64,000 bases of DNA from Burkholderiales bacterium. Lineage in GTDB: Bacteria > Pseudomonadota > Gammaproteobacteria > Burkholderiales > Casimicrobiaceae. The notes beneath the pieces were generated by a model that was not told the origin of the DNA, searched no databases, and worked only from the letters and a program-made list of their open reading frames with translations. The stretch lies in assembly GCA_016790165.1 (NCBI GenBank), contig JAEUPL010000005.1, forward strand, positions 1-64,000, written 5' to 3'. Below, piece by piece: positions 2,343 to 59,005 of the stretch. A program made the translations under genes and the position numbers. Positions within the stretch are counted from its first letter, which is position 1. Each line of letters starts with the position of its first letter.

Positions 2343-2462
2343 ACAGCTTTTTGGCTGCTTTGGCCGCTGACTGGTCGATACAGCGCGATTTTCCTTGTTG
2401 TTGACTTAACCAAAAATTGCCCTGAAACGACCTGCTGGCCGTGCGTAGCGTGAAAAAGCCGT
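2343..2462. repeat. 120-bp two-fold symmetric intergenic element, copy 1
   Basis: Starts ACAGCTTTTT and ends in the complement (AAAAAGCCGT), with the centre GTTGAC at 2400-2405, exactly 60 bp from each end. Both halves carry GGTCG at half-position 31-35. Lies between intI and the aldo-keto reductase gene, both on the plus strand. The rest of the 2289-2573 gap shows no gene. Confidence 0.8.
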
Positions 2463-2573
2463 ATCGCGCGCATTGACGAGCAACTGCATCCCGATCTCAA
2501 TCGCTGCTACCTCCCGCCCGCGATGAAGTATCCGGGCTAGACTTTCATCCCCACGTCTTGACCCAGCCCACTC

Positions 2574-3617
2574 ATGGAACGTCGTCCCCTGTTTCACGCC
2601 AACCTCAATGTGTCCGTCCTGAGCCTTGGCACCATGACCTGGGGCGAGCAGAACACCGAGGCCGAGGCGCATGACCAGCTTGACTGGGCGGTGGCCAACG
2701 ACATCAATTTCGTCGATACCGCCGAGATGTACCCGGTGCCGCCGTGCGCCGAAACGGGCCTGCGCACCGAGATCATCCTTGGCAAGTGGCTGGCCAAACC
2801 GGGCAACCGGCAAAAGGTGGTGCTCGCCTCAAAGATTGCCGGCCCCGGCCGTCGCGACTGGATTCGCAACGGCGCGACCTCGTTGACCAAGGCCAACATC
2901 ATCGATGCCTGCGAAGGATCGCTGCGGCGCCTGCAAACCGATCACATCGACCTCTATCAAATCCATTGGCCGGACCGCAACGTGGCGGCCTTTGGCACCT
3001 GGCGCTTCGACAGCGGCAAGGAGCGCCCCACGGTGCCGATTGAGGAGCAGGTGGAGGCGATGCAAACGCTGATCCAGCAAGGCAAGATCAGCGGCTACGG
3101 CCTGTCGAATGAAACCGCATGGGGCACCACGATGTTCTGCCGCGCGGCGGAGGCGATGGGTGCGCCGAAGCCGGCCTCGATTCAGAATCCGTATTGCCTG
3201 CTCAATCGCAGCTTTGAGGGCGATCTGGCCGAGGTGAGCTATCGCGAGCAGGTGCCGCTGCTCGCCTACAGCCCGCTCGGCATGGGCGTGCTCACCGGCA
3301 AATACCTGGGCGGCGCGTCGCCCGCTGGTGCGCGCTTCACGAAATTTGGCAAGAAGATGGGTGGGCGTTACACGCGGCCGCTGGCGATGGTGGCCACCGA
3401 GGAGTACGCCACGCTGGCGCGCAAGTACGGCATGAGTGTGCTGCAACTGGCCATCTCGTTCGCCGTGACGCGCTGGTTCAGCGCCAGCGCCATCATCGGC
3501 GGCACCTCGGTGGCGCAGTTGCAGCAAATCGTCGAGGCGTACCAGACGCCACTGTCGGCGGAGTTGCTCGCCGAGGTCGACGCCATCGGGGACCGCTACC
3601 TGCACCCGTCGGCATGA
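2574..3617 (+). CDS. tas: NADP(H)-dependent aldo-keto reductase, Tas-like
   Basis: A 347-residue cytoplasmic oxidoreductase with a TIM-barrel fold expected to reduce aldehydes or ketones with NADPH. The catalytic tetrad of the family is visible as D48, Y53, K87 and H131 (DTAEMY, ASK, QIHWPD). Its full length, the MYPVPPCAETGLRTE stretch and the QNPYCLLNR segment match the E. coli Tas (YgdS-type) branch rather than the short monomeric aldose reductases. The physiological substrate cannot be deduced. No good ribosome site precedes the ATG. It converges on rplY with a shared terminator between them. Confidence 0.88.
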   Translation: MERRPLFHANLNVSVLSLGTMTWGEQNTEAEAHDQLDWAVANDINFVDTAEMYPVPPCAETGLRTEIILGKWLAKPGNRQKVVLASKIAGPGRRDWIRNGATSLTKANIIDACEGSLRRLQTDHIDLYQIHWPDRNVAAFGTWRFDSGKERPTVPIEEQVEAMQTLIQQGKISGYGLSNETAWGTTMFCRAAEAMGAPKPASIQNPYCLLNRSFEGDLAEVSYREQVPLLAYSPLGMGVLTGKYLGGASPAGARFTKFGKKMGGRYTRPLAMVATEEYATLARKYGMSVLQLAISFAVTRWFSASAIIGGTSVAQLQQIVEAYQTPLSAELLAEVDAIGDRYLHPSA

Positions 3618-3638
3618 TGATTGCCAAACGCTGAAATG

Positions 3639-3666
3639 AAAAAAGCCCGCTGTCGCGGGCTTTTTT
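3639..3666. terminator. bidirectional Rho-independent terminator
   Basis: GCCCGC-TGTC-GCGGGC stem flanked by six A on the left and six T on the right, so it can end transcripts from both the aldo-keto reductase gene (plus) and rplY (minus). Confidence 0.92.
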
Positions 3667-3684
3667 GTGACGCGCAAGAAGCAA

Positions 3685-4368
3685 TTACTTCTTCTTGGCG
3701 TCCTTGGCAGGGGCCGCTGCAGCAGCGGCGGGTGCCTTTTGCTTCGAAGCGGCAACTTCGGCGGCAGCGACCGGAGCGGCGCCGTCCGTTGCGGCTTCTT
3801 CCGCAACCACGGACGCGGTGGCGAACACGGCGTCCTTGTTGCGGCCATGGAACACCAGGCTCACACCGGCCGGCAGCTTGACGTCAGCCGCGTGCACGGA
3901 GTCGCCGGATTTCAGATCCTTCAGGTCCACATCGATGAAGCGCGGCAGATCCTTCGGCAGGCAGGCGACTTCGACTTCGTTCAACACGTGGTTGACGATG
4001 GCGGCCGACAGTTTCACCGCAGGCGAGATTTCCTGATTGACGAAGTGCACCGGCACTTTCATGTGCAGTTTCTTGTTGGCGTCCACGCGCTGGAAGTCGA
4101 TGTGCTGGATCAGCTGCTTGAACGGGTGATATTGCACGTCGCGCAGCAGCACCTGGCTCTTGGCGCTACCGAGCGTCATGGTCAGGATTGAGCTGTGGAA
4201 GTCTTCCTTCTTGAGGGCATGCCACAGGGCGTTGTGATCGAGCTCGATCAGTTCGGGTTTGGCCTCGCCGCCATAGACGATGCCCGGCACTTTGGCCGTG
4301 TTGCGCAGGCGGCGGCTCGCACTACTGCCTTGCGCGGTCCGCGCGAACGCGGTGAATTCGGTTGCCAT
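3685..4368 (-). CDS. rplY: 50S ribosomal protein L25 (CTC family)
   Basis: A 227-residue 5S-rRNA-binding protein of the large ribosomal subunit, in the long CTC form with an extra beta domain after the L25 core. The N-terminus MATEFTAFAR and the motif VPGIVYGG are typical. The C-terminus is an alanine/lysine-rich tail ending KDAKKK. The start at 4368 is chosen because GGAG lies 9 bp upstream; an in-frame extension to 4443 is not conserved in the family. It follows prs on the same strand, a standard betaproteobacterial order. The peptidyl-tRNA hydrolase gene (pth) that normally comes next is absent here. Confidence 0.95.
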   Translation of the reverse strand: MATEFTAFARTAQGSSASRRLRNTAKVPGIVYGGEAKPELIELDHNALWHALKKEDFHSSILTMTLGSAKSQVLLRDVQYHPFKQLIQHIDFQRVDANKKLHMKVPVHFVNQEISPAVKLSAAIVNHVLNEVEVACLPKDLPRFIDVDLKDLKSGDSVHAADVKLPAGVSLVFHGRNKDAVFATASVVAEEAATDGAAPVAAAEVAASKQKAPAAAAAAPAKDAKKK

Positions 4369-4470
4369 TTCTGTAACTCCAGTTAGGTTGTGGTTTTGTC
4401 GTGACCCCGCGACCAGGGTGACGCAAAAGCCCGCCTGCGTCATGCCGGCAGGAAAAATCGGGATACCTTG

Positions 4471-5433
4471 CTACTCGGTGAACAGCGACGACACGCTGTC
4501 TTCGTTGCTGATGCGCTGCATCGTCTCGGCGATGAGTTGGGCGCTGGAAATCTGGCGAATCTTGCCAGTGGCGGCGGCGAGCTCCTCGGCGGCCTTCGAC
4601 AGCGGAATGGTGTCGGTCACCACCAGCGAATCAAGCGATGGCCCGGCAATGCGGTTCACCGCTTCGCCCGAAAGCACCGCATGCGTGCAGTAGGCGATGA
4701 CTTTCACCGCACCGTTGTCCTTGAGTGCCTGCGCCGCTTTGCACAAAGTGTTGGCGGTGTCGACGATGTCGTCCATGATCAGGCAGGTGCGACCGCGCAC
4801 ATCGCCGATGATGTTCATCACTTCCGATACGTTCGCCTTCGGGCGACGCTTGTCGATGATCGCCAGATCGGTGTCGAGCCGTTTCGCCACGGCGCGGGCG
4901 CGCACCACGCCACCGACGTCAGGCGACACCACGAGCAGGTTGTCGTATTTCTGCTTCCAGATGTCGGCCAGCAAAATCGGCGTGGCGTAAATGTTGTCGA
5001 CGGGAATGTTGAAGAAGCCCTGAATTTGGTCGGCATGCAGATCCATCGTCAGCACGCGATCGACGCCCACGGCGATCAGCATGTCGGCCACCACCTTCGC
5101 CGAGATGGCGACCCGGGCCGAGCGCGGACGGCGATCCTGCCGAGCGTAGCCGAAATACGGCATGGCGGCGGTGATACGGCCAGCGGAGGCGCGCTTGAGC
5201 GCATCCACCATGATCACCAGTTCCATCAGGTTGTCGTTGGTCGGGGCGCACGTGGATTGCAGCACGAACACGTCGCGACCGCGGACGTTTTCGAGAATTT
5301 CGACGTTGACTTCGCCGTCAGAGAAGCGCGCCACCTGCGCCTTGCCCAGCCGCATGCCGAGATGCTCAACCACCGAATGCGCCAGCCTGGCATTGGCGTT
5401 TCCGGTGAAGACCATCATGTCGTGAAAACTCAT
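4471..5433 (-). CDS. prs: ribose-phosphate pyrophosphokinase (PRPP synthase)
   Basis: A 320-residue enzyme that makes PRPP from ribose-5-phosphate and ATP, feeding purine, pyrimidine, histidine, tryptophan and NAD synthesis. Visible hallmarks: [10 protein letters not shown], the [16 protein letters not shown] flexible-loop region, the [11 protein letters not shown] motif and the PRPP-binding loop [12 protein letters not shown]. Full length for the bacterial class I enzyme. It lies between tRNA-Gln and rplY on the same strand with a terminator separating it from the tRNA. Only a weak ribosome site (AGGC) precedes the ATG. Confidence 0.97.
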
Positions 5434-5513
5434 GGCGGGCCTGTCTGCGATTCGTTGATGAGTGGTCGATGGGCTGGCGGGCTCTTCAGCAGCGCTTGTG
5501 GCGCGCGCTACTG

Positions 5514-5553
5514 AAAAAAAAGCGGCCTTGGAGGTGTGCTCTAAGACCGCTTT
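5514..5553 (-). terminator. Rho-independent terminator between tRNA-Gln and prs
   Basis: On the minus strand AAGCGGTCTT pairs with AAGGCCGCTT around a 13-nt loop, followed directly by a run of eight T. It would end the transcript carrying tRNA-Gln, so prs should have its own promoter in the roughly 80-bp gap. Confidence 0.85.
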
Positions 5554-5562
5554 GGCTGTTGG

Positions 5563-5639
5563 TGGCAGGGGAGGAAGGAATCGAACCCTCGAATGTCGGA
5601 ATCAAAATCCGATGCCTTAACCGACTTGGCGACTCCCCT
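5563..5639 (-). tRNA. tRNA-Gln (anticodon TTG)
   Basis: A complete cloverleaf on the minus strand: acceptor AGGGGAG/CTCCCCT, D-arm with AAGTCGGTTAAGGC, anticodon loop GATTTTGATTC giving TTG, T-arm GGGTTCGATTCC, discriminator G and an encoded CCA. Location between ispE and prs is standard for the group. Confidence 0.96.
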
Positions 5640-5710
5640 ACACATCCGGCGTGCAAAGCACGTCAGGAAGCCTGAAATTATAGCATCAAGACGGAGTCGC
5701 TGTCATTGCG

Positions 5711-5742
5711 CCGACGTGCCGACGTGCCGACGTGCCGACGCG
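5711..5742. repeat. 8-bp tandem repeat, four units
   Basis: CCGACGTG repeated three times followed by CCGACGCG, directly downstream of the ispE stop codon at 5752 on the minus strand. A candidate variable-number repeat. Confidence 0.85.
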
Positions 5743-5751
5743 CCGCGGCGC

Positions 5752-6621
5752 TCACGTCGCCAAGCCCACAAGCGGGTGCACGCCGAGCGTGCGCACCACC
5801 CACGCCTGCCAGCCACCATCACTCAGCGCCCGCTGGACAGGGCGCGCCCCGCTGTCGCTCGTGCACAGCGCGAAAACGCAGGCGCCCGAGCCGGTCATGC
5901 GAGCCCCCGTCGCGCCCGCAGCGACGAATGCCGCGCGCAGCGCAGCCACGCGGGGCTCGATGCGTTCAGCCACAGGTTGCAAATCGTTGTGTCCATGATT
6001 CAGGGCAAGCGCGGCGTGGTCAAGCGGCGGTGTGTCGCGGCGCAAGTCGACGGCCGAAAAGACCGGGCCGGTCGCGACCCCCGTGCCCGGGAAGGCGACG
6101 ACCGCCCAACACGACGGCACGGTGACAGTAAGCAAGTGCTCACCGATTCCGCGTGCCAAGGCCGCCCGACCGTGGATGAAAAACGGCACATCGGCCCCGA
6201 GAGGCAGCGCGAGCGCGAGCAGCTCTGCGCGAGACAGACCCAGCTGCCACAGCCGGTTCAGGCCGAACAGTGTCGTCGCGGCGTCGCTGCTGCCGCCGCC
6301 GAGGCCGCCGCCCTGCGGAATCCGTTTTTGCAGGCGAATGTCAACGCCAAGCCGGCAATGGGTGGCGGATTGCAGCGCGCGGGCTGCCCGACAAGCGAGA
6401 TCGTTCTCAGCCGTCAGGCCGTCGGGCGCGTCCAGCAAAGCCACCACGCCATCATCTCGTCGCGTCAGGCTGACCGTATCGAACAGCGTGATGGGTACGA
6501 ACACGCTTTCAAGCAGGTGATAGCCGTCGGCGCGGCGGCCGGTGACGTGCAGGAATAGATTGAGCTTGGCGGGCGCCGGCAAAACCAGCCGCTCCGGCAA
6601 CGTCGGTGCTGTCGCAGTCAC
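5752..6621 (-). CDS. ispE: 4-diphosphocytidyl-2-C-methyl-D-erythritol kinase
   Basis: A 289-residue GHMP-family kinase that phosphorylates CDP-methylerythritol, the fourth step of the MEP route to isoprenoids. Visible: the PAKLNLFLHVTGRR substrate motif near residue 16, the glycine-rich ATP loop PQGGGLGGGSSDAA at 102-115 and the C-terminal GARMTGSGACVF segment. It starts with GTG at 6621, overlapping the lolB stop by 4 bases, so the two are translationally coupled. Downstream comes an 8-bp tandem repeat and tRNA-Gln. Together with dxs and ispA, three isoprenoid-pathway genes lie in this window, in separate loci. Confidence 0.96.
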   Translation of the reverse strand: MTATAPTLPERLVLPAPAKLNLFLHVTGRRADGYHLLESVFVPITLFDTVSLTRRDDGVVALLDAPDGLTAENDLACRAARALQSATHCRLGVDIRLQKRIPQGGGLGGGSSDAATTLFGLNRLWQLGLSRAELLALALPLGADVPFFIHGRAALARGIGEHLLTVTVPSCWAVVAFPGTGVATGPVFSAVDLRRDTPPLDHAALALNHGHNDLQPVAERIEPRVAALRAAFVAAGATGARMTGSGACVFALCTSDSGARPVQRALSDGGWQAWVVRTLGVHPLVGLAT

Positions 6622-7316
6622 TGCGCCGTCCAGCGGTCAAGCGCCCAGCGAAGCTCGGCGCTCTCGCCACTGACCATGGCGCTCCAGCGCATGCGGCGCG
6701 GCAAGCCGTCCTCGGGCCAGCGTTCGGAAATCACAACCTCCCAGCCCGCTTGCGTGAAAGCCTGCACGGCGCCGCGGTCGCCTTCGCGGATGACATTGAC
6801 GGGCCCGGGTGGCGCGTCAGCGGTTGCGGGCTGGCCCTGCAGCCACGCCAGCAGTACCGCGTCAGGCACGTCAATCGGCAGCACATCAGCCAACAGCGCT
6901 GTGAGCCGCGGGGCGGTCACTTCGCGGCCATCACTGAAGCGCGCTGTAGCGAGACCGGCTTGCGCGGCGTTGTTGTTGGCCGGACGGGCGGTGATCTCCG
7001 CCAGCGGCGTGCCCAACGGTGAAAACAATGAGAGCGATATCGCTCCGCGCGCAGCGATGAGTTGAAATTGGCCGCTTGCCTTGCCCTGCGCACTGCTTGC
7101 GCTGAACCGGCCGCTGGTGTTGATGCTGTCCCGCAATGCCGACGACGCCGCCGACGGCACGGTCGTGTGCAAAGGCCCGGGGATCGGCGTCGAAAGCGAA
7201 GCGCAGCCCGTCAGACCGATCGCCACCGCGACCGCCACGCTGAAGCACGTGAGCGCGCGGGAAGGCAAACGAAACAGCAAGTGCGTCGAACGTCCCGAAA
7301 TGCGAAACATCAGCAT
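6618..7316 (-). CDS. lolB: outer membrane lipoprotein LolB
   Basis: A 232-residue lipoprotein that receives lipoproteins from LolA and inserts them into the outer membrane. The signal sequence ends in the lipobox GLTGC (Cys about residue 37), followed by SGRFSASSAQGKASGQFQL, matching the LolB beta-sheet start, and a C-terminal half with GWEVVISERW and LPRRMRW. The start at 7316 is chosen because it gives a normal signal peptide; ATG at 7310 is equally possible. It lies 41 bp behind the TPR lipoprotein gene and overlaps ispE by 4 bases. Confidence 0.9.
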   Translation of the reverse strand: MLMFRISGRSTHLLFRLPSRALTCFSVAVAVAIGLTGCASLSTPIPGPLHTTVPSAASSALRDSINTSGRFSASSAQGKASGQFQLIAARGAISLSLFSPLGTPLAEITARPANNNAAQAGLATARFSDGREVTAPRLTALLADVLPIDVPDAVLLAWLQGQPATADAPPGPVNVIREGDRGAVQAFTQAGWEVVISERWPEDGLPRRMRWSAMVSGESAELRWALDRWTAQ

Positions 7317-7357
7317 GTGTGACAAACAGCGCTGGCGCCGGGCCGCGTTAACACGCC

Positions 7358-9115: not shown

Positions 9116-9138
9116 GAGGGCGAGCATACACTGCGCGG

Positions 9139-9972: not shown

Positions 9973-10134
9973 GGAAACGCTGAATAAGCCCGCGCCGAGC
10001 TGCGCGCGACGGATCGGGATGGGTGGCGAGGCGCAAAACGCAGTCGTAGCGGGGCTACGACGAGGCTTTGCAACGAAGCCAACCGCACGAGCCCGGCGAT
10101 GCGCGGCTCGCGTGGGACTTGTTCAGCGTTTCCC
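9973..10134. repeat. 162-bp inverted-repeat element (GGAAACGCTGAA family)
   Basis: Ends are inverted copies: GGAAACGCTGAATAAG on the left and the complement of GGAAACGCTGAACAAG on the right, with similarity continuing inward for about 28 bp. The middle holds the 15-bp palindrome CGTAGCGGGGCTACG (10045-10059), which recurs in the element at 40467-40648. Sits between the mutM and xth stop codons (convergent). Too small to code for a transposase; a non-autonomous or REP-like element. Confidence 0.85.
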
Positions 10135-12401: not shown

Positions 12402-12416
12402 GGAAACGCTGAACAG
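12402..12416. repeat. single arm of the GGAAACGCTGAA repeat
   Basis: GGAAACGCTGAACAG matches the left end of the element at 9973-10134. It is fused to copy 2 of the 120-bp family, sharing its last bases. An inverted partner arm lies at 14501-14517, beyond ptsH. Confidence 0.7.
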
Positions 12417-12532
12417 CTTTTTATGTCTGTGCACTAACGAACGGTGCTTTGGGCGTGATTTGTTGCAAGGTCGACTTAGGCACTTTTCTGCCTTGAAGCC
12501 GCACTAGATCGTGGATGGAGTCGAAAAGCCGT
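12413..12532. repeat. 120-bp two-fold symmetric intergenic element, copy 2
   Basis: Begins ACAGCTTTTT, ends AAAAGCCGT, centre GTCGAC at 12470-12475, 60 bp from each end. The halves are among the more diverged, lacking the CGACC/GGTCG mini-hairpin in recognisable form. Lies between the DUF4124 gene and gshB, both on the plus strand, and fills nearly the whole gap. Confidence 0.75.
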
Positions 12533-23921: not shown

Positions 23922-24332
23922 GTAAGCAAGCGCGTTCCGGCGCGAGAAAGGCAAAGGCGAATTTTAGGGGGTGTCGGTTTGGGCGAGGCAATGGCGGCGC
24001 TCAATTGGGGTTGGGTGAGGATCACTGCCGCCGGCGCGCGGAGTCTCGCGGTGCGGAGCGCGCTGCGGTCCCGCCAGCGCGTCTCACCTGCGTTAACATT
24101 CGCGCCGGGTCTGCAGTTCACCCAGACGTTCCCGGCCGCAGTTTCTTGCACGGCTTTGCTAAACCTGCTGATCGTTCAATGGCTGTTGGCTGCGCCGGGC
24201 GCGGGAACGGCACCGATCGTTTTTCTGCACCGACTGTTTGACGCTTTGCTTGCGCCGGGTCGTGCTGGAAGGGGAGCTCCCAGCGTTCATTTCGTCCTGG
24301 CCGATTTCAATTCCTGAAAGGCAGGCTCACAC
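23922..24332. other. gap of about 410 bp without a gene
   Basis: Between the kinase (minus) and the DUF2087 gene (plus), so both promoters should be here. No member of the described repeat families and no convincing coding frame was found. Confidence 0.5.
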
Positions 24333-25087: not shown

Positions 25088-25207
25088 ACAGCTTTTGCGT
25101 CGTATCGACCGCTCCGTGCTGACTACGGGCCGTTTCTCTATGAAGTCGACTTGACAAAAAATTAGCGCCAGCGCGCCGCCGGGCAGCCGTTGCAAGCGAA
25201 AAGCCAA
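25088..25207. repeat. 120-bp two-fold symmetric intergenic element, copy 3
   Basis: Starts ACAGCTTTTG, ends GAAAAGCCAA, centre GTCGAC at 25145-25150, 60 bp from each end, followed by a six-A run. The left half has CGACC at half-positions 19-23. Lies between the DUF2087 gene and argS, both on the plus strand, ending 53 bp before the argS start. Confidence 0.8.
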
Positions 25208-29229: not shown

Positions 29230-30066
29230 TTGACCAGCGCTGCGGTCGGGGTCGACGCGATTGGCCTGCGGCACGCACGTTTCCATTCGCCGGCGCGGCT
29301 GCGCATCGCCTGCCTGGTGCCGTCGATCACTGAAACGCTCTTCGCACTCGGACTCGGTGATCGAGTCGTTGCGCGCACCGGCTTTTGCATTCATCCCGAA
29401 CCGGCCGTCCGCGAGGTGCCCAAAGTGGGCGGCACCAAGGACGTCAACCTCGCGCGGCTGCTCGCGACGGAACCGACGCATGTGATCGTCAACATCGACG
29501 AAAACCGCAAGGACGCCGTCGATCAGATCCGCCGCGCCGTCCCGAATGTGATCGTCACCCACCCGGTACGCCCCGAGGACAATGTGGCGCTGTTTGCGCT
29601 ATTCGGCTACGTGTTCAGCGCCGATGCGGCGGCAGCGGCGCTCACGCGCGACTTCGCCGATGCGCTCGACACCGCGCGGGCCGTGGGCGCGCAGGCTGAC
29701 CGCGAGCCGGTGCTGTATCTCATCTGGAAGCAGCCGTGGATGACCGTGTCGCGCGACACCTACGTGAGCGCCATGCTTGCCACGGTCGGTTGGAGCACGC
29801 TCCCCGCGCAGGCCGAGCGCCGCTACCCCGAACTCGACGCGGACGACGCGGCATGGCGCGACGCCGCGCGCATCCTGCTTTCAAGCGAGCCCTATCCGTT
29901 TGCCGAGGATCACGTTCAGGCGTTGCGCGAGGCGGCACCCAACGCGCCGCCCGTGGCGCTGGTCGACGGCGAGATGACGAGCTGGTACGGCGTGCGGGCC
30001 ATCGCCGGATTGCGCTATCTTGCGCGGCTGCGACAGGCGGAGGCTCTGACGCTCAGTGGCTTTTAG
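29230..30066 (+). CDS. BtuF-like helical-backbone metal/cobalamin receptor
   Basis: A 278-residue protein of the periplasmic-binding type III fold used for vitamin B12 and siderophores: RIACLVPSITETLFALGLGDRVV, FCIHPEPAV, VGGTKDVNLARLLATEPTHVI and a late GEMTSWYG. No export signal is visible, and no permease or ATPase is near, so it may be a stand-alone cytoplasmic member. It starts with TTG at 29230, 6 bp after the dsbA-like gene. Its last codons and TAG stop lie inside copy 4 of the 120-bp element. Confidence 0.82.
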   Translation: MTSAAVGVDAIGLRHARFHSPARLRIACLVPSITETLFALGLGDRVVARTGFCIHPEPAVREVPKVGGTKDVNLARLLATEPTHVIVNIDENRKDAVDQIRRAVPNVIVTHPVRPEDNVALFALFGYVFSADAAAAALTRDFADALDTARAVGAQADREPVLYLIWKQPWMTVSRDTYVSAMLATVGWSTLPAQAERRYPELDADDAAWRDAARILLSSEPYPFAEDHVQALREAAPNAPPVALVDGEMTSWYGVRAIAGLRYLARLRQAEALTLSGF

Positions 30067-30175
30067 CGTCGAACGACCATTCAACGGTCGTTAGCGCCTG
30101 CTTCTGCATCAAGTCGACTTAACAGAAAAACTGTCGAAAACGACCAATCAGCCGTCGATAGCGGCCCAAAGCTGA
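30056..30175. repeat. 120-bp two-fold symmetric intergenic element, copy 4
   Basis: Left end GTGGCTTTTA, right end CCCAAAGCTGA, centre AAGTCGACTT (GTCGAC 30113-30118), 60 bp from each end. The left half has a perfect mini-hairpin AACGACC-N7-GGTCGTT at half-positions 17-37; the right half has the matching CGAC/GGTCG pair. The left end overlaps the last codons and TAG of the BtuF-like gene; the right end stops 9 bp before the dxs stop. Convergent gene pair. Confidence 0.85.
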
Positions 30176-30184: not shown

Positions 30185-32077
30185 TCAACCCACCGGACTG
30201 AAGGCAACGCAGCGTTCGCGAATGCTGCGCTCGATGCCGGCGGCATCGAGCCCTGCGGAGGCAAGCATGAGGGCCGGGTCGCCCTGATCGATAAAGCGAT
30301 CCGGCAGCCCAAGCGTGAGCAGCGCGCAGGCGAGGCCGGCCTGCGCCAGACACTCGGCCACCGCGCTGCCCGCGCTGCCTTCGACTGAGGCCTCTTCCAC
30401 CGTCACCAGCAGATCATGCGTGGCCGCCAGCTCGCGGATTAGCGCGCCGTCGAGCGGTTTGACGAAGCGCATATTGACCAGCGTCGCGTCGAGCGCGTCG
30501 GCGGCGACGCGTGCCGGGTGCAGCATTGCCCCCCAGCCAAGAATGGCCACGCGACGCCCGGCCGTCGCGGTGCTCGGTACCCCCGAGCGCTCGCGCACCC
30601 GCACGCCTTTGCCATGAGCCAGCGGCGCGAAGCCCGCTTCCGGCGCGCCGTGCGCCGCGCCGCGCGGATAGCGCACGGCCACCGGTGAGGCCAGCGCCAC
30701 GGCGTGCGAGAGCATGGCACGACACTCCGCCGCGTCACTCGCGCTCATGATGGTCATGTTCGGCAGACAACGTAGATAGGCCACGTCGAAACTGCCGGCG
30801 TGCGTGGGGCCGTCGGCACCGACCAAACCCGCGCGGTCAATCGCAAACACGACGGGGAGATTCTGCAGTACGACGTCGTGCACCAGTTGATCGTAGGCGC
30901 GTTGCAGGAACGTCGAATAAATCGCCACCACGGGTTTCATGCCTTCGCAGGCGAGGCCCGCTGCAAAGGTCACGCTGTGCTGCTCCGCGATGCCGACGTC
31001 GAAGTAGTTATCCGGATGCTCCTTCGAGAAGCGCACCATGCCTGAGCCTTCGCGCATCGCGGGCGTAATGCCGACGATGGTCCTGTCTGCCGCAACCGCA
31101 TCGCACAGCCAGTCACCAAAAATGTCCGAGTAGGTCTTCTTTGGCGACTTCCCCGGGTCTGCCGGGGGGATGCCGACGACGTGATCAAATTTGCCGACAC
31201 CGTGATAGAGGATCGGATCATCCTCGGCCCGCTCGTAACCGGCTCCTTTGCGTGTGAGCACATGCAGAAACTGCGGGCCTGGCCGGTCCTTCACCTTGTT
31301 CAGCGTGTCGACCAGCAGATTCACATCATGCCCGTCGATCGGGCCGATGTAGTTGAAGCCGAACTCTTCCCACATGGTGCCAGGCAGAACCATGCCCTTC
31401 ATGTGCTCTTCCCAGCGCCGCGCGAAGCGCGACACGGGCGGCAATGCCGACAGCACGCTCTTGCCCACACTGCGCACCTTGCCATAGGTCTTTGAAGCGA
31501 GCAGCCGGGAGAGGTAGTTATTGAGCGCGCCGACCGGTTCGCTGATCGACATCTCGTTGTCGTTGAGGATCACCAGCACGTTGGCGTCCATCGCACCCGC
31601 GTTGTTCAGCGCTTCAAACGCCATGCCCGCCGTCATCGAACCATCACCAATGATCGCCACCACACGCCGCGCTTCTCCCTTGGCCTTGGCGGCGACCGCC
31701 ATGCCCAGTGCCGCCGAGATGCTGGTGGACGAATGCGCGACACCAAAGGTGTCGTACGGGCTTTCGTCGCGCTTGGGGAATCCCGCAAGGCCACCCCATT
31801 GCCGCAGCGTGTGCATGCGTTCGCGGCGACCGGTCAGCACCTTGTGCGGATAGCACTGATGGCCCACGTCCCAGACCAGCCGATCATGCGGCGTGTCAAA
31901 GCAGTAGTGCAGGGCAACCGTGAGCTCAATCACGCCGAGGTTTGACGACAGATGCCCGCCGGTTTTCGACACGGAGTCGAGCACATAGGCACGCAGTTCG
32001 TCACAAACGGCGGGCAACGCCGTGCTGGGTTGGGTGCGCAGTTGAGAGGGTTCGATGATCGAATCGAGCAGTGACAT
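30185..32077 (-). CDS. dxs: 1-deoxy-D-xylulose-5-phosphate synthase
   Basis: A 630-residue ThDP enzyme condensing pyruvate and glyceraldehyde-3-phosphate, the entry step of the MEP isoprenoid pathway. Visible: [33 protein letters not shown], the ThDP motif [18 protein letters not shown] and the transketolase pyrimidine domain with [15 protein letters not shown]. Full length. It follows ispA on the same strand after a short gap (26 bp), so ispA and dxs are an isoprenoid operon with xseB at its head. Confidence 0.97.
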
Positions 32078-40466: not shown

Positions 40467-40648
40467 ATCATCCCAAATTTCCCATCAGGCGGCCTGTGGC
40501 CTACGCGAACGCTGTCGGCGCATTCGGGCGCATCTTGAGCGCACTTTGTTTTCGCCGTAGCCCCGCTACGACTCAAGAAACTGCGCCCACCCTGCGTCCC
40601 GACTGCATCCGACAGCGCCTCGCGTCCTGACGGGAAATTTGGGATCAT
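40467..40648. repeat. 182-bp MITE-like element with 23-bp terminal inverted repeats
   Basis: Left end ATCATCCCAAATTTCCC (40467 on) and right end GGGAAATTTGGGATCAT (to 40648) are perfect inverse copies for 17 bp, extending to 23 bp (CATCAGG/CCTGACG) with one mismatch. The interior includes the 15-bp palindrome CGTAGCCCCGCTACG (40556-40570), identical to that in the 9973-10134 element. Ends 6 bp before the guaD start codon. Rest of the 40332-40654 gap has no gene. Confidence 0.88.
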
Positions 40649-41994: not shown

Positions 41995-42114
41995 ACAGCT
42001 TATTCAGTCTGGCGACCGCCGGCCGGTCGTCATAGACCATTTTTCCACTTAGTCGACTTAAAAAAAAACAGCCCAAAGCGGCCAACGGGCTGTCGTTCAA
42101 GGCAAAAAGCTATA
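41995..42114. repeat. 120-bp two-fold symmetric intergenic element, copy 5
   Basis: Left end ACAGCTTATT, right end CAAAAAGCTAT, centre TTAGTCGACTTA (GTCGAC 42052-42057) with a T-run before and a nine-A run after. The right arm is one base shorter (to 42113). The left half holds the mini-hairpin CGACC-N7-GGTCG at half-positions 19-35. The guaD stop is 2 bp outside the left end; the stop of the convergent MBL gene (42110-42112) lies inside the right end. Confidence 0.85.
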
Positions 42115-47428: not shown

Positions 47429-47548
47429 GCAACTTATTGCAACCAACGACTGTCCAATAACGGTTTCAGCCATTTTTTCCTTAATGTCGACTTGTGTAAT
47501 TTTCTGCCTACTGTTCCCGTCGGACGGTCGCTCGGCACATAAAGTTGT
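47429..47548. repeat. 120-bp two-fold symmetric intergenic element, copy 6
   Basis: Left end GCAACTTATT, right end AAAGTTGT, centre AATGTCGACTT (GTCGAC 47486-47491), 60 bp from each end; CGAC sits at half-positions 19-22 in both halves. The compensating change at both ends (AACTT/AAGTT instead of AGCTT/AAGCT) preserves pairing. It lies in the divergent gap between TerC and ugpB. The rest of the gap (47549-47765) holds the ugpB leader, a possible -10 TACATAAT near 47670 and an AGGAG ribosome site. Confidence 0.82.
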
Positions 47549-50875: not shown

Positions 50876-50888
50876 GCGCCGCATAGCG

Positions 50889-51953: not shown

Positions 51954-51979
51954 CGCTCCATCAGAAGCAGTAGCGAATG

Positions 51980-52000: not shown

Positions 52001-52017
52001 ACGCGTTGGGCGTTGCC

Positions 52018-52506
52018 CTAGCCACGGTTGATGCGCTCACCGAGCACGATGGACGTCGTGGTCTTGCTCACCCCCTCGGTCTCGCCAATCTCGTCGAGTA
52101 GGCGATCAAGCGCATTGGCGGATTCGGCACGAATCCACGCCACGTAGTCAAACTCGCCGCTGACGCTGCACACCAGCTTGATCTCGGGCATCTTCGCCAG
52201 CCGCTTCAGCACGTTGCGCCCGGCACGCGGCTCGACCGAGAGCCCGACATACGCCTGCAACGACTGCTCCAGTGCAGCCTGATTGAGCCGCACGCTGTAG
52301 CCCGTGATCACGCCGCGTGCCTGCAGGCGCTCCATGCGGGCGATCACGGTAGTCCGCGCAACACCAAGCGTTTTGCCAAGCGTGGTCACGCTCTCGCGGG
52401 CGTTGGTCTGCAGCAGTGCCAGAAGTTCGCGATCCGTGGCGTCGAGCGACGCGAGCGACGGGGCGTCGACGGCGGTGCCCTGCGCGGGGTGGCGGTTTAG
52501 GGTCAT
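52018..52506 (-). CDS. Lrp/AsnC-family transcription regulator
   Basis: A 162-residue regulator. The N-terminal helix-turn-helix is LDATDRELLALLQTNARESVTTLGKTLGVARTTVIARMERL (described 20-60), the C-terminal RAM ligand domain has YVGLSVEPRA and VSGEFDYVAWI. Divergent from the saccharopine-dehydrogenase-like gene with a 161-bp gap, so it probably controls that gene in response to an amino acid, lysine being the natural guess. Confidence 0.92.
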   Translation of the reverse strand: MTLNRHPAQGTAVDAPSLASLDATDRELLALLQTNARESVTTLGKTLGVARTTVIARMERLQARGVITGYSVRLNQAALEQSLQAYVGLSVEPRAGRNVLKRLAKMPEIKLVCSVSGEFDYVAWIRAESANALDRLLDEIGETEGVSKTTTSIVLGERINRG

Positions 52507-52667
52507 CGATTTTCAGATGCATCAATTTGTCGTGTATGCACTGCATATTGTCTTGCCTTTAGTAGCCTTTCGTCAATACGGCTGTTCTATTCGTCATCGC
52601 CGGTTTCTAGAATTCCTCATCGCCCACCCTTCATCACACGCTGCGGCTCCGGTGATGACCACGTGCC

Positions 52668-53774: not shown

Positions 53775-53852
53775 ACCGAACCCCGGGTGCGGCGGGGAGT
53801 CGTCGCCCGCAGCCTGGCGGTGGTCAACCGCGCCGCGGACTACACTCGCGTG

Positions 53853-54608
53853 ATGACTCTCCCCGCCTGGCCTTACCCCAAAACCATTGCCCACCGTGGC
53901 GCCGGCAAGCTCGCGCCTGAAAACACGCTAGCCGCCATCCGGCACGGCGTGAGTCTGGGCTACCGCGCCACCGAGATTGACGTCAAGCTCTCGGGTGACG
54001 GCACGCTGCTCCTGATGCACGACGACACGACCAACCGCTGCTCCGACGGCCGCGGGCGCGTCGCGGCCAAGACCTGGCATCAGCTCGCGCTCCTGGATGC
54101 GGGATCGTGGCACTCGGCAGCCTATGCCGGCGAGCCGATTCCCACCTACTGGCGAGTCGCGAAGTACTGCATTGCGAATGGCGTGCAACTCAACACCGAG
54201 ATCAAACCCTGCGTCGGCCGCGAGCGTGAAACGGGTGCCGCAGTCGCACTCGAAACGCAGGCGCTGTTCAGCGCCCCCGAGCACGCGCACTTGAAGCCGT
54301 TGCTGTCGTCGTTCTCCACCGACGCGCTGATCGCCGCGCGCGACGCCGCCCCAGAGTTCGACCGAGCGCACCTTTTCGAGAACCCGCTGCCGGCCGACTG
54401 GCTGGCCCGCTGCCAAGCCGTCGGGGCCGTCGCACTGGATGCCAACTGGCGTACGTTGACCCAGGAAATCGTGTCAGAAGCCCACGCCAATGGACTGCGC
54501 GTCGCCTGCTATACCTGCAATGACCCCGAACAGGCAGAACGGCTATGGGCCTTTGGGGTGGATACCATCATCACCGACGCCGTTGACACCATCGCCTTCC
54601 GGCGCTGA
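53853..54608 (+). CDS. ugpQ: glycerophosphodiester phosphodiesterase
   Basis: A 251-residue cytoplasmic enzyme releasing glycerol-3-phosphate from glycerophosphodiesters. Motifs: IAHRGAGKLAPENTLAA, the metal-binding EIDVKLSGDG, MHDDTTNR, and NTEIKPC. TIM-barrel, no signal peptide, which fits UgpQ. Start at 53853. Its 3' end overlaps an antisense secreted-protein frame by 100 bases. In E. coli ugpQ directly follows ugpC; here two unrelated genes intervene. Confidence 0.94.
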   Translation: MTLPAWPYPKTIAHRGAGKLAPENTLAAIRHGVSLGYRATEIDVKLSGDGTLLLMHDDTTNRCSDGRGRVAAKTWHQLALLDAGSWHSAAYAGEPIPTYWRVAKYCIANGVQLNTEIKPCVGRERETGAAVALETQALFSAPEHAHLKPLLSSFSTDALIAARDAAPEFDRAHLFENPLPADWLARCQAVGAVALDANWRTLTQEIVSEAHANGLRVACYTCNDPEQAERLWAFGVDTIITDAVDTIAFRR

Positions 54609-55099
54609 CCTGAACGCACCGTCTGCGTCCAGAGAGGGCACGCAGCGACTGCAAGGAGTAATTTGCCCAGCGTCGGCACGACGGGGGGCGGGATCACGAG
54701 GGCGTAGCAGAACGTGACGCTGCCGTCGCCCGAATTGCCACTGTCCTCGACCGTACCGCTCGTCAGGCCATCGATGTAGAAGTTCCCGCCACCACCACTA
54801 CCGCAACGACCAGCGCCGACAGCCTCATTGGCCGCACTGATACCACCGTGCCCGACCGCGGTGCGGTTCGCACAATTCCCCTGCGAGCCGGCACACCTGC
54901 CGTCGCCGACCTGTGCACCACGGGCAATGATTTGCAGCGACGTGACACCCGTAGGCGTCGTCGATGCGTGCGCCGCCCCGGTGAACGCAAAGTGCCGCTG
55001 ATTCGGCAGATTGCACAGTGACTGCGCGAACGCGGCCGATGCCCAGGCACACACGGTCAGTGTGACGGCAAGCATTCGTTGCTGGAATTTCGCGGTCAC
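54509..55099 (-). CDS. secreted protein with degenerate VPTL-CTERM-like tail
   Basis: A 196-residue frame with a signal peptide ending SAAFAQ, a glycine-rich middle (CGSGGGGNFYIDGL) and PPPVVPTLGKLLLAVAA, which resembles the IPTL/VPTL-CTERM sorting signal (Pro-Thr-Leu, hydrophobic stretch, then basic SGQRRK). Normal CTERM proteins end just after the basic cluster; this one runs on for about 30 residues into antisense ugpQ. So the original stop may have been lost, or the gene is decaying. Probably anchored or sorted at the outer surface if intact. Confidence 0.55.
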   Translation of the reverse strand: MTAKFQQRMLAVTLTVCAWASAAFAQSLCNLPNQRHFAFTGAAHASTTPTGVTSLQIIARGAQVGDGRCAGSQGNCANRTAVGHGGISAANEAVGAGRCGSGGGGNFYIDGLTSGTVEDSGNSGDGSVTFCYALVIPPPVVPTLGKLLLAVAACPLWTQTVRSGQRRKAMVSTASVMMVSTPKAHSRSACSGSLQV

Positions 55100-55342
55100 T
55101 CAGCGCTTGCCTAGGCAGCGGTTGCCGTGGCACTTGCGCATCTCCCGAAAGCGCCGTCGCACTGGGTGCCAACTCGCGTACGCTGAACGAGAACATCCTG
55201 ACAGTGGCGCCGGGGCGTCGACATCGCGACTACCGATACGATGGAAAAGATCGCGTTGCGCGGGCGCCGCGTCAGCACCGCCGTTCGATGCCAATGCGGC
55301 CAGTGTTGCCGCCGTCGACACAGCCGCCGCTTCTTTTGTGTC
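55100..55342. other. gap that may hold degenerate coding sequence
   Basis: Between two minus-strand secreted-protein genes. Minus-strand frames of 60-75 codons are open here with runs such as SVRELAPSATALSGD, but no start with a ribosome site or recognisable domain was found. Possibly a decayed upstream part of the CTERM protein region. Confidence 0.3.
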
Positions 55343-56380
55343 CTATTGCGCGAAGTTGAGGCCGCAGTTCGTGCTGAGGTGAGCTCGAATGAGGGGCCAC
55401 GAGTTTCGCGGCGCCCCGACCGCGACGGCGTTGTCAGTGACGGCGGTGCCCGTCATGCCCAGCAACGCGCGAACGAGCATCAGCGCATCGGTCATCGCGC
55501 CTACCAAACCGTTGCCGTCAATGTCGAGGCAGGGACTCGGCTCGGCAGCGACGGCAAGCCCGTCAATGACAGTCGCGGTACCAATGCCACCCACGCTCGA
55601 CGCGGCTCCGGTAGCGAGATTGACAGTGTGCAAAATGGAGGCGCTGCCGACACGCAGGACGGCGTAAGCAACGCCACCGGCCGGATCAATGGCCATGCCG
55701 CCAAACCCTGTCACGGCGACCCCGAGCGGTCCGATCGTGCTCAACTGACCACCGTTGGCGGAGGGCGTGCCGTTGACGCCACCGATCCGCACCAGCGCGA
55801 GCGTTGCCGTGTCGATGCCAAACAGCGTGGAGCCGCTCACCCCGCGCTGGTGAGCAATGTGCACGACTTGCGGCGTGACCGCCGCGTTGGAGTCACCGGA
55901 CGCATACGCCAACGCTGTGTCGGTGGCGACAATTGAGCCATCGATCGGACTCAGCCGTCGGTTACTGCGAAGATTGGAGAGCAGGCGCAGTTGATCCGTC
56001 TGCGGGTCGAAGCCCAACCCAAAGAACAACGCAACCGGGTCCGTGATCGCAATGGGAGCGCCGACGTTTGACAAGCTTCCGTTGAACGAATTGACGCGAA
56101 CCAGGCGATATGTCGTGTTGTTGGTGGCCACTGCGAAAATCTCGCCAGTCGCCGGCCGCACGTCGATGCCTACCAGATACTCGTCTGCGGCGAGACCGGC
56201 GAGCGGCAAATCAAGCACCAGCGTGCCTGGCGTCGCTGAATCAAAGGCAACCAAATGGTGGTTGTCAAAGTTGTACGCATAAAGTCGCACCGCTTCGGCG
56301 CGACCGATGCAGAGCGCGAAAATCAACCAGACAAGACTGGTCATGATCGACGGCATGTTGCGAGCAGGATAGGGTTTCAT
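55343..56380 (-). CDS. secreted DUF4394 protein with a C-terminal dockerin-like EF-hand
   Basis: A 345-residue exported protein. The signal peptide ends GRAEA; the mature start LYAYNFDNHHLVAFDSATPG and EYLVGIDVRPATGEIFAV are DUF4394 (propeller-like). Near the C-terminus CLDIDGNGLVGAMTDALMLV gives an EF-hand calcium loop (DIDGNGLV) with the ALMLVRALLGMTG helix, of the dockerin type I half. Function unknown. GGAG precedes the ATG at 56380. The 255 bp upstream (56381-56635) hold only a diverged GGAAACGCTCAA repeat arm near 56622-56636. Confidence 0.82.
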   Translation of the reverse strand: MKPYPARNMPSIMTSLVWLIFALCIGRAEAVRLYAYNFDNHHLVAFDSATPGTLVLDLPLAGLAADEYLVGIDVRPATGEIFAVATNNTTYRLVRVNSFNGSLSNVGAPIAITDPVALFFGLGFDPQTDQLRLLSNLRSNRRLSPIDGSIVATDTALAYASGDSNAAVTPQVVHIAHQRGVSGSTLFGIDTATLALVRIGGVNGTPSANGGQLSTIGPLGVAVTGFGGMAIDPAGGVAYAVLRVGSASILHTVNLATGAASSVGGIGTATVIDGLAVAAEPSPCLDIDGNGLVGAMTDALMLVRALLGMTGTAVTDNAVAVGAPRNSWPLIRAHLSTNCGLNFAQ

Positions 56381-56635
56381 ACAGTGTCTCCGTGAGCTGC
56401 CGTCTTGCGGCCAGCATTCCGGCATTATCCCCGCAGGCGGCGGGTGTGGGATACATCACGCACAGCCGCCTGCGCGGCCACTGGCGACCGGGTCGGCTTG
56501 CCCGTCAGGGAAGCGCGAACAAGTGCCAGGCGAGCCACGCATCAACCGACTCGGGCGGCGGGCCGGGTTGAATCGCCTCGCCACCCGTCCGGATCCGTCG
56601 CCGGCCACCCTGCGGGAACTCATTGAGCGTTTCCG

Positions 56636-58201
56636 CTAGACGATCAATTCGATCAAAAACGGCGTGTCCCGCTGAAAACTCTGCCGCATCAGATCAGCGC
56701 AGGATTCGAGTGTGGTGGCGCGGGCGGCTTCGACGCCCATGCCGCCGGCGAGTTTGACCCAGTCGAGGTCGGGATTGCCGAGGTCGAGCATGCTCATGGC
56801 GGTGGAGCCGGGCGTGGCGCCGACATTTTTGTATTCGCCGATCAGGATGCCGTATTTGCGATTGCTGAGAAGCAGGGTAGTGACCGGCAACCGTTCGCGC
56901 GCCTGCGTCCACAAGGCCTGCAGGGTGTACATCGCCGAGCCATCGGCCTGCAAGGCGATCACGCGCCGCCCGTTGCCTGCCAGCGCCGCACCGGTCGCCA
57001 TCGGCAAGCCCGCGCCAATCGCGCCGCCGACCAGATGCAACCAGTCATGCGGCGCGGCCGCCACGGTATGCGGGTAAAAACCGCGGCCGTAGGACACGCT
57101 TTCGTCAATCACGATGGCCTGCTCGGGTAGCACGGCAGCGAGCGTTTGCGCGAGACCCTCGGGAGTCGGCGCGCCGTTGACGACGTCAGGCGCGGGGCCG
57201 ACATCCGGAAACGCAGCGGGTGGCGCTCCGATCTCACTCGCCAGCGCTTCGAGCGACGCCAACGCATCCTGATCCTCTCGCGCGAGCACATGCAGTTGCG
57301 CCGTGTCGGAATACTGCTTGGACGGCTTGCCTGGGTAGGCGAAGAAGCCCACCGGCGCCTTGGCACTCACCAGCACAATGTGCTCGAAGTCGCGCAGCGC
57401 CTGCACGGCCGCGTCGGTCACGTAGGGCACTCGGGCGAGCGGCAGCCGCCCGCGTCCGCGTGCGACCTGCGCGGTGACGTAGTCCGCCATCAGCGCGGCA
57501 CCGGTCGCCTGCGCGATGCGCCACGCAAGCGTTTGCCCGACGACGCTGGTACCGTTCCCGGCGAGCAGCAACAATGCTTTGCCACCACTTCGCAATGCAC
57601 GCGCCGCCTGCTGCACGGCGCTCGGATCAATTGCCGGCGCGGGCAGTTCCGGCAGCGCCTCGGCCACCACACCGCCTTCGTCCCACGAAGCGTCGGATGG
57701 CAGGATCAACGTGGCGACTTTCGCCGGAAAGCTGCGTGCCGCCTGTATCGCAGCGGCGGCGGCGCCCCCAACGTTGGCCGCGTGCTCGCAGGTGCGCACC
57801 CAGGCGGACACGCTGCGGGCGAGGCTTTCGGTGTCTGCTGTGAGCGGCGCGTCGAGCGGACGGTGATAGGTCGCCTGATCACCGACGATGTTGACGATGC
57901 CGCTGCGGGCACGGCGCGCATTGTGCAGGTTGGCGAGACCATTGGCGAGACCCGGCCCGCAATGCAGCAGCGTGACCGCGGGCTTACTCGCAATGCGGTA
58001 ATACCCGTCGGCCATTCCCGTCACCACGTTCTCCTGCAGACCCAGCACGCAACGCATTCCTGGGCTCTGGTCCAGCGCGGCCACGAAATGCATCTCGCTT
58101 GTGCCCGGGTTGGCGAAGCAGGTGTCGATGCCGGATTGAAGCAGTGTCTCGACGAGGCTCTGAGCGCCATTCATGGCGCGTCTCTGTTGGACGCCGTTCA
58201 T
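56636..58201 (-). CDS. thiamine-diphosphate-dependent enzyme (acetolactate synthase large-subunit-like)
   Basis: A 521-residue ThDP enzyme of the benzoylformate decarboxylase/acetolactate synthase superfamily. N-terminal domain with FANPGTSEMHFVAALD and the catalytic Glu in LGLQENVVTGMADGY; the C-terminal ThDP motif is ALQADGSAMYTLQAL...NRKYGI, with ADGS in place of GDGS. No small subunit follows, and the sequence lacks clear FAD-binding marks, so the substrate (a 2-oxo acid) is uncertain. Start 58201 has AGGAG 6 bases upstream. Monocistronic. Confidence 0.85.
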   Translation of the reverse strand: MNGVQQRRAMNGAQSLVETLLQSGIDTCFANPGTSEMHFVAALDQSPGMRCVLGLQENVVTGMADGYYRIASKPAVTLLHCGPGLANGLANLHNARRARSGIVNIVGDQATYHRPLDAPLTADTESLARSVSAWVRTCEHAANVGGAAAAAIQAARSFPAKVATLILPSDASWDEGGVVAEALPELPAPAIDPSAVQQAARALRSGGKALLLLAGNGTSVVGQTLAWRIAQATGAALMADYVTAQVARGRGRLPLARVPYVTDAAVQALRDFEHIVLVSAKAPVGFFAYPGKPSKQYSDTAQLHVLAREDQDALASLEALASEIGAPPAAFPDVGPAPDVVNGAPTPEGLAQTLAAVLPEQAIVIDESVSYGRGFYPHTVAAAPHDWLHLVGGAIGAGLPMATGAALAGNGRRVIALQADGSAMYTLQALWTQARERLPVTTLLLSNRKYGILIGEYKNVGATPGSTAMSMLDLGNPDLDWVKLAGGMGVEAARATTLESCADLMRQSFQRDTPFLIELIV

Positions 58202-58289
58202 CGCGTGCTCCTTTTTCTGGCGCCGTTCATGGAGTTCCGTTCCGGAAAGCAATTGCTCCGTGTAGCCCGACGGCTCTGTCGTGCGCCGC

Positions 58290-58886
58290 CTAAAAGGGAC
58301 CAATGCACTTTGCTGCGGCGATTCGCTCGGCCTTCTGCACATCGCTGAGCGGCGAGCGCCAGATCGCGAACAGGAAGGGCTCGGCAACGGGCACGAAACC
58401 CACGCGCCGATCCACGGCTTCAGCCTGTTTGTCACCAATGTAGCCCCAGATCGTGGCGTGTGCGTCGAGCACCGCATGCGCGCCGCGCATCATGATTTCT
58501 GCAATGCCGCCGCGCTCACGAATCCACGCACGATCAGCGGAAGGCAGCTCGCGATAGACGCGGTCATCGATGCACAATCCGCCGCACAGAAAATCGCCTT
58601 GCCAGGGCGTGTAGTGCACATAGCCCGCGCACCTCTCGCCAACCATGGCGACGAAGTGCCGCGGAAAATCGGGAATGTGCTGACCGAACTTGCGCTGGAA
58701 GAGCGCACCAGCGACGGCCAAGGCACGCGCGTCGTCGACTTCCGCCACGCGGACTACGGACGCAGTCATGGTGGCGGACGCATCTGCTGCGCCAAGCATC
58801 GACTCCGCCGATGCTCCCGGCGATTGTGGCGAGTGCGTTGGGCGCGACGGCCGTCGCCACCAGTCGAGCAGCGGGCGCAGCATCAT
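58290..58886 (-). CDS. uncharacterised GNAT-like protein
   Basis: Up to 198 residues; the core from about residue 41 (TASVVRVAEVDDARALAVAGAL) to EPFLFAIWR suggests an acetyltransferase-like alpha/beta fold with GYVHYTPWQGDFLCGGLCIDD as the central strands, but no firm acetyl-CoA motif is seen. The start is uncertain: ATG at 58886 lies at the edge of the 120-bp element copy 7, while ATG 58796 has GCGGAG 3 bases upstream. Function unknown. Confidence 0.6.
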   Translation of the reverse strand: MMLRPLLDWWRRPSRPTHSPQSPGASAESMLGAADASATMTASVVRVAEVDDARALAVAGALFQRKFGQHIPDFPRHFVAMVGERCAGYVHYTPWQGDFLCGGLCIDDRVYRELPSADRAWIRERGGIAEIMMRGAHAVLDAHATIWGYIGDKQAEAVDRRVGFVPVAEPFLFAIWRSPLSDVQKAERIAAAKCIGPF

Positions 58887-59005
58887 CAGCTTATTGCCGC
58901 CAACGACGGCGCGGCGACCGTTACCGACCTGAAATCGCCAAAGTCAACTTCACGATAAATCATCGTCCAGCGACCATCCAGTCGTCGTTTGGCTCAAAAA
59001 GCTGT
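58886..59005. repeat. 120-bp two-fold symmetric intergenic element, copy 7
   Basis: Left end TCAGCTTATT, right end CAAAAAGCTGT, centre AAGTCAACTT (GTCAAC 58943-58948), 60 bp from each end. CGAC is at half-positions 19-22 in both halves and GGTCG at 31-35 in the right one. Between two minus-strand genes; the right end continues into the TAA stop (59005-59007) of the DUF2147 gene. Confidence 0.85.

Follow-up and report, generated by a model that had tools for sequence, protein, structure and literature searches.

Two-fold symmetric 120-bp intergenic elements in one genus of Casimicrobiaceae: candidate docking sites for a chromosome-organising protein

The DNA analysed here (the window) is a stretch of 64,000 nt at the start of contig JAEUPL010000005.1 of a Burkholderiales bacterium of the family Casimicrobiaceae, and belongs to a host assembly of 3.76 Mb in 41 contigs (GCA_016790165.1). 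It contains seven intergenic elements of ∼120 bp with a two-fold symmetric consensus, which are the subject of this report. A first-pass annotation, made from the letters of the window, had proposed seven copies centred on GTYRAC, each 120 bp long except for one that is a base short. All seven are confirmed in place, the centres read GTCGAC, GTTGAC or GTCAAC, and six copies span 120 bp, whereas copy 5 spans 119 bp (41995-42113). None of the copies is assigned a strand. Copies 1 (2343-2462, centre GTTGAC), 2 (12413-12532), 3 (25088-25207) and 7 (58886-59005, centre GTCAAC) occupy gaps between tandem genes, copies 4 (30056-30175) and 5 lie between convergent genes, and copy 6 (47429-47548) lies between divergent genes. 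Copy 4 is neighboured by a dxs-like gene on the minus strand (30185-32077). In what follows, G000 denotes the host and the other G numbers the genomes of relatives, C numbers denote contigs and L numbers denote retrieved stretches.

Read outward from the centre, the element consists of a central module AAGTCGACTT, an A-tract, an inner module and an end module ACAGCTTTT that is bordered by A/T. In copy 4 these are the central module at 30111-30120, the A-tract position at 30102-30105 (mirror 30126-30129), which reads TTCT here, the inner module at 30072-30092 (mirror 30139-30159) in the first of two dialects described below (AACGACC..GGTCGTT), and the end module at 30056-30064 (mirror 30167-30175), for which the family consensus is ACAGCTTTT with A/T before it. 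In most members of the family, positions 47-49 of the A-tract read AAA or TTT. At 120 of the 122 ends of 61 copies the adjoining base is A/T, and the site is therefore ∼122 bp.

The two half-units of a window copy are 45–58% identical, with the exception of copy 5 at 37%, owing to its missing base. Between window copies, half-unit identity averages 48–51%, as compared with 27% (standard deviation, sd, 6%) for random pairs of 60-base windows; the similarity thus exceeds that of random pairs. Scanning every centre in the window for symmetry places copies 1–4 among the 25 best (31–35 of 60 matches) and copies 5–7 outside them, and scores as high (33/60) are also reached at places outside the elements. 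The symmetry of a single copy is accordingly unremarkable, and it is the family as a whole that is beyond chance. In the larger set of 65 host copies introduced below, the halves of the same element are 52.8% identical and those of different elements 52.5%. Two-fold symmetry is therefore a property of the consensus and not of individual copies, which corrects the ‘exact’ symmetry claimed earlier.

When a sequence-only model of the seven copies was run against the host genome, the best 150 of 1823 candidates all had E<=3.4e-13; as a palindrome is matched on both strands, these represent at least 75 host places. For closer analysis we used an 864-kb host sample, composed of the window and 800 kb of further host stretches, which was searched with a hidden Markov model from the seven window copies in both orientations (E<1e-3). 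The search gave 65 elements, 58 of them outside the model set, and the reversed 864-kb control gave zero matches at E<1; further copies are found in related genomes. When extended to the model ends, 61 of the 65 are 120 bp, three are 119 bp and one is 121 bp, where the ends of the five matches that span <115 model positions are assumed and one element tallied as 119 bp (C23:2312) is actually a +10 variant. With a mean pairwise identity of 0.525, length is better kept than sequence, in agreement with the first-pass annotation. Density was taken from contiguous parts (C6 1-124000, C15 1-300000 and C18 1-340000), leaving aside pieces of C12 and C23 that had been picked for having matches. These parts hold 12, 25 and 21 elements, respectively, i.e. 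58 in 764 kb or one per 13 kb, which extrapolates to ∼285 sites per host genome. The 65 copies carry 88.7 bits of information, whereas arithmetic indicates that ∼14 bits would suffice to mark 285 places in 3.76 Mb. Literature searches for such elements turned up no paper describing them.

Inverted terminal sequences and many dispersed intergenic copies are also what an ancient non-autonomous mobile family would leave behind, of the MITE (miniature inverted-repeat transposable element) or REPIN type, maintained by a transposase and not by a host function; the seeding of an 89-bit motif does require some copying process, and 15 of the 17 genomes of the genus have RAYT-type genes (PF01797), the host with two matches. 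The copies themselves point elsewhere. No closely related pair exists among the 65, where the maximum pairwise identity of 0.683 falls within the range of maxima from column-shuffled sets (0.642–0.717, mean 0.664), and the copies act almost as independent draws from one 88.7-bit motif. Orthologous elements are no more alike than non-orthologous ones, as indicated by identities of 0.629 and 0.639 for G008 (2 pairs), 0.574 and 0.569 for G012 (6 pairs), and 0.604 and 0.586 for G062 (2 pairs), respectively. The flanks of 61 copies reveal no clear target duplication, the match of left to right flanks being within ∼2 sd of shuffles for k=2-10 (0.352 at k=2, shuffled 0.287, sd 0.036). PF01797 is present in 10 of 11 genomes with the exact pattern of the element (defined below) and in 5 of 6 without it, and element positions are common to relatives. 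Two other window repeats give a direct contrast, as each has ∼90% identical copies and the 120-bp elements have none so close. The first (9973-10134, ∼162 bp, inverted ends GGAAACGCTGAA..TTCAGCGTTTCC) looks like a recent MITE, and its copies include one of 91% identity in the host (C6:91874-92035) and several of ∼90% in G005; the second (40472-40643, ∼172 bp, inverted ends ATCCCAAATTTCCC..GGGAAATTTGGGAT) has a 90% copy at host C12:57649-57819. Maintenance of the elements as such a mobile family is thus rather unlikely, and the recent mobile family suggested in the first-pass annotation finds no support in copy relatedness, flanks or positions.

Base pairing offers a second way to account for the conserved modules, and a structured RNA, bidirectional terminator or cruciform would make use of the inner modules, which are gapped inverted repeats in the consensus; single copies fold at −27.5 to −40 kcal/mol, as raw values without a shuffle control. 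We therefore scanned the 65 copies for covariation against 20 column shuffles (maxima 18.6–30.4) and inspected the 60 strongest pairs. The top covarying pairs are neighbours, namely the AAA/TTT blocks at 47-49 and 72-74, CA/TG at 2-3, and the pair 96-97. Neither arm pairs (17-24 with 30-37) nor dyad pairs (i with 121-i) are among the 60 strongest. Directed pairing tests are at the level of shuffles for the left arm (z 1.6, or 1.9 when slid by one column), the right arm (z −0.6) and the whole dyad (z 0.5). The CGAC/GGTCG stem of the first-pass annotation consequently persists as a conserved gapped inverted repeat with arms that do not covary; the compensating changes read in copy 6 reflect no family trend, the covarying stems expected of a larger set do not appear, and selection on base-paired structure is not borne out. 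The A-tracts at 47-49 and 72-74 switch between AAA and TTT as blocks and not jointly across the dyad, such that the polarity of one side does not predict that of the other (columns 44-52: 0.405 versus 0.411). No Rfam match falls over the elements at gathering thresholds, in keeping with a sequence that the first-pass annotation did not recognise. Function through base pairing is thus very improbable. The absence of pairing covariation together with the independent A-tract polarity fits a double-stranded site that is read by a protein, and the constraint is better accounted for by a protein that recognises double-stranded DNA than by either base pairing or mobility.

The A/T content of the half-site has its strongest period at 9.75–10 bp (P 0.001 for periods 6–20 with column shuffling; P 0.0004–0.003 for the 9.5–11 band, of which 0.003 is obtained by shuffling in 3-column blocks), whereas over the full 120 bp the period peaks at 9.5. 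In a scan that allows variable spacing between modules, 93 of 98 half-elements of the host and 16 of 20 of G008 keep the standard distances; in the dialect-2 set, 59 of 86 are standard and a further 25 are within one base per interval. Reversed controls gave none. Eight matches have large offsets, and five of these were accepted: (+10,−1) in the host, (+10,+11) twice in G008, and (+10,0) and (+10,+10) in G012. All eight large offsets in the five accepted variants are +10 or +11 bp, i.e. one helical turn, although the cases are few and acceptance was judged by eye after the offsets were known. The rejected matches are (0,8), an alternative centre within a normal element, (12,16), which lies inside a called gene (C15 32720-33262), and (9,0), an ambiguous end of a normal element. 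The two G008 variants are adjacent elements 1.4 kb apart (L185:8255-9788), in both of which the left half is longer by 10 and 11 bp, and as neighbours they may be non-independent. The open reading frame (ORF) between them reads by eye like an ABC-type substrate-binding protein.

Placement relative to genes was derived with a crude gene caller, by which 64 of the 65 elements could be placed. All 64 are intergenic, with overlaps to gene calls of <=13 bp. Convergent, tandem and divergent gaps hold 17, 36 and 11 elements, as compared with 44, 188 and 86 available gaps of >=120 bp, respectively. The elements lie a median of 18.5 bp from stop codons (70 sides) and 117.5 bp from start codons (58 sides), and mostly adjoin gene 3′ ends. 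Along the chromosome they are evenly spaced on most stretches tested. When compared with random choice among gaps of >=60 bp, the spacing on C15 has a coefficient of variation (CV) of 0.42, with 0 of 5000 simulations as even, and that on C6 a CV of 0.44 (P 0.010). The 30 spacings pooled for G012 have a mean of 10.9 kb and a CV of 0.55, against 0.93 for a uniform null that ignores genes (P 0.001), and two spacings are <4 kb where the same null expects 9.5 (P 0.0002).

Positions of the elements are shared with relatives. With the host model, a first pass of 18 element-gap comparisons in six relatives gave 12 filled and six empty gaps. Reading of the gaps and use of a second model then revealed elements in four of the six apparent empties, i.e. 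at 12413 and 30056 (degenerate) in G005, at 41995 in G001 and at 47429 in G054, the last by the dialect-2 model. Two remain empty: 30056 in G062, and 41995 in G054, from which the neighbouring gene is missing as well. Orthologs of copies 3, 4 and 6 are also present in G012. In a gene-based table for the six relatives, 12 gaps hold an element in both host and relative, one in the host only, 47 in neither and none in the relative only. The comparison of orthologous gaps proposed in the first-pass annotation thus finds 12 of 13 element gaps filled and 0 of 47 gained, with copy 4 absent in G062. The copy 2 gap was followed through 13 relatives, of which G001, G004, G005, G008, G012 and G062 have an element and G011 and G064 have element-like fragments. 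These fragments (L233 and L240) combine an ACAGCTT end with a GGCTT-like module and are without the GTCGAC centre; they may represent a third dialect or decaying elements. In the metagenome-assembled genome with the nearest dxs relative (82%), the 5.8-kb locus has no element at E<=1.

To follow the distribution of the family, we used the exact pattern GCTTTT-N46..50-GTCGAC-N46..50-AAAAGC, with the reversed pattern as control; elements more diverged than this pattern or the model queries permit would escape such searches. Of the 64 family genomes searched, 17 belong to the genus, and 11 of these contain the exact pattern (73 places in the host, 89 places in G012); the 47 genomes outside the genus have none, and the reversed pattern is present in 0 of 64. 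An order-wide draw of 399 genomes, seven of which belonged to the genus, has the exact pattern in three, all of this genus, and the reversed pattern once each in three genomes. At E<=1e-6, the host model matched 9 of 60 family genomes, again all in this genus. A model of the second dialect gives at least 150 matches each in G001, G005, G006, G012, G054 and G062, 142 in G004, 17 in G009 and 0–10 in the other nine genomes. In the complete 4.47-Mb chromosome of G005, the 150 best matches (∼75 places) are distributed between 81 kb and 4.39 Mb.

The ends and centre are common to both dialects, and it is the inner module that differs. Dialect 1, with the inner module AACGACC..GGTCGTT of G000 and G008, is seen in G000, G003 and G008; dialect 2, with AAAGCC-CATT..GGGCT-like inner modules, is seen in G012 and G062 as well as in G005, G001 and G054. 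One element of G009 (L221, G009:C9:49323) combines a GGTCGTT arm with a GCCCCAT module on the opposite side, possibly a mixture of the two. Stretches of G002, G007, G010, G011, G043 and G064 give weak or partial matches only, with inner-module scores of 9 versus 5 in the reversed control for G007, 11 versus 6 for G002 and 9 versus 8 for G011. The species tree is unrooted and built from up to 19 window proteins (6609 columns; three proteins for G064, five for G003 and G010, and none for G006), with an IQ-TREE run made without G003, G010 and G064. G000 groups with G062, G005 and G012, and G003 and G008 group with G004, G001 and G054; the remaining members of both groups have dialect 2. The dialects thus cut across the species tree, which requires at least two shifts when the other genomes are set aside. 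A reader protein that changed, with the sites following, would account for such shifts.

Taken together, the constant length, symmetric consensus, placement, even spacing, one-turn spacing variants, shared positions and dialects lead us to propose, with a probability of roughly 60%, that each element is a docking site on double-stranded DNA for a large symmetric protein that organises the chromosome. A two-fold symmetric, sequence-specific assembly would contact, and probably wrap, ∼120 bp, and from a single face of the helix it would read the central module, the A-tracts and the inner and end modules of both halves. By extrapolation, a genome has some 285 of these sites, intergenic and mostly beside gene 3′ ends at roughly every 11–13 kb, and they could then act as organising points, e.g. 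by anchoring or limiting supercoiled domains, and not as regulators of single genes. An ancient element was probably copied to give the initial set, since mutation is unlikely to have produced an 89-bit motif hundreds of times over.

Several observations weigh against this proposal. An information content of ∼89 bits is far beyond the need of one protein. The spread of pairwise identities is slightly above that of shuffles (sd 0.0465 versus 0.0406), and two non-neighbour pairs, 12-106 (26.6; 60% standard pairs, three columns off the dyad) and 52-76 (21.9), score within the span of the shuffle maxima; neither is read as a stem. On C18 the evenness of spacing is not significant (CV 0.74, P 0.15), and one pair of elements is 843 bp apart. 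Lengths in dialect 2 are less uniform, with 27 of 57 elements at 120 bp, 20 at 119 bp, nine at 118 bp and one at 129 bp. Five distinct host gaps underlie the gap table, and each of its six relatives has the family; the copy 2 gap has no recognisable element in G002, G007, G009, G010 and G043, and the exact pattern is missing from 6 of 17 genomes of the genus. Among the 48 host-sample proteins comparable between dialect groups, no convincing candidate for the reader was found (of 778 crude proteins, searched at >=50 residues, 215 had a match), and we know of no binding protein, footprint or phenotype for the elements.

DNA gyrase is a special case of the docking-site explanation. If the elements were strong gyrase sites, at which gyrase alone or with a partner wraps ∼130 bp and evens out supercoiling as at BIME-2, then the length, within the 120–150 bp expected of such regions, the half-site A/T period of 9.75–10 bp, the proximity to gene 3′ ends and the even spacing would all be in keeping. 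The elements, however, have lineage dialects, their exact pattern occurs in one genus only whereas gyrase is general, and the central TCGA is not known to be the preferred overhang of the E. coli enzyme. The E. coli gyrase motif is described as 130 bp long, near the ∼120 bp of the elements, with G/C content phased at 10 bp, and gyrase as enriched downstream of highly transcribed operons with BIME-2 as strong sites (PMC6379681); this phased motif and downstream placement make gyrase the best specific guess. The same source calls the motif degenerate and read by indirect readout (PMC6379681), in contrast to the ∼89 bits found here. Information content, dialects and confinement to one genus together favour a dedicated protein, and gyrase as the reader appears unlikely. 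An Lrp-like wrapping regulator is another possibility for the reader.

On the reading of a dedicated docking protein, the elements might constitute a new kind of array, which we put forward tentatively, as something short of an even bet: ∼300 evenly spaced, wrapped 120-bp sites of ∼89 bits each, present in one genus only, with positions kept while the free bases have fully turned over, and with the dialect of the reader switched genome-wide at least twice in parallel. Chromosomal domains in E. coli are ∼10 kb in size. If the proposal is correct, information-rich 120-bp sites at even intervals would amount to a natural ruler along the chromosome, with marks that in this lineage are open to counting, removal and comparison between species, and questions on ∼10-kb domains could be put to the test at defined positions. 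A route to the reader protein is offered by the two dialects, as its gene tree should follow dialect rather than species.

Elsewhere in the window, two tandem Rfam matches to the glycine riboswitch (RF00504, 61226-61455) lie directly upstream of a 376-aa ORF (61484-62614), a COG3860 RNA motif (RF02940) is found at 24107-24170 with 48.1 bits against a threshold of 42.5, and a tRNA-Gln (anticodon ttg) is encoded on the minus strand at 5563-5639.

With regard to known systems, the matS/MatP, parS/ParB and SlmA sites are likewise dispersed palindromic chromosomal sites with a dedicated protein. Those sites are ∼13–20 bp and regional, whereas the elements measure ∼120 bp and are distributed along the chromosome of G005; to our knowledge, bacterial architectural sites are otherwise short and mostly regional. 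ERIC (or IRU) sequences, of which RU-1 is a synonym, resemble the elements in outline, as the first-pass annotation had remarked, and the likeness ends there: the elements lack copy-to-copy relatedness, a covarying stem and a target duplication, and have positions common to several species, properties in which they differ from ERIC. The shared outline is that of an intergenic repeat of similar size (127 bp for RU-1, PMC2759123). REPIN/RAYT systems likewise have paired inverted units, many copies and long persistence, as described in PMC3116915 and PMC8049555, whereas the elements have no closely related copies and no covarying hairpins, and their presence shows no clear link to that of RAYT genes. 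Finally, gyrase sites and BIME-2 are intergenic and present in many copies, with a ∼130-bp motif phased at 10 bp and a proposed part in genome organisation (PMC6379681), and from these the elements differ in having no covarying hairpins, far more information, even spacing and a pattern found in one genus.

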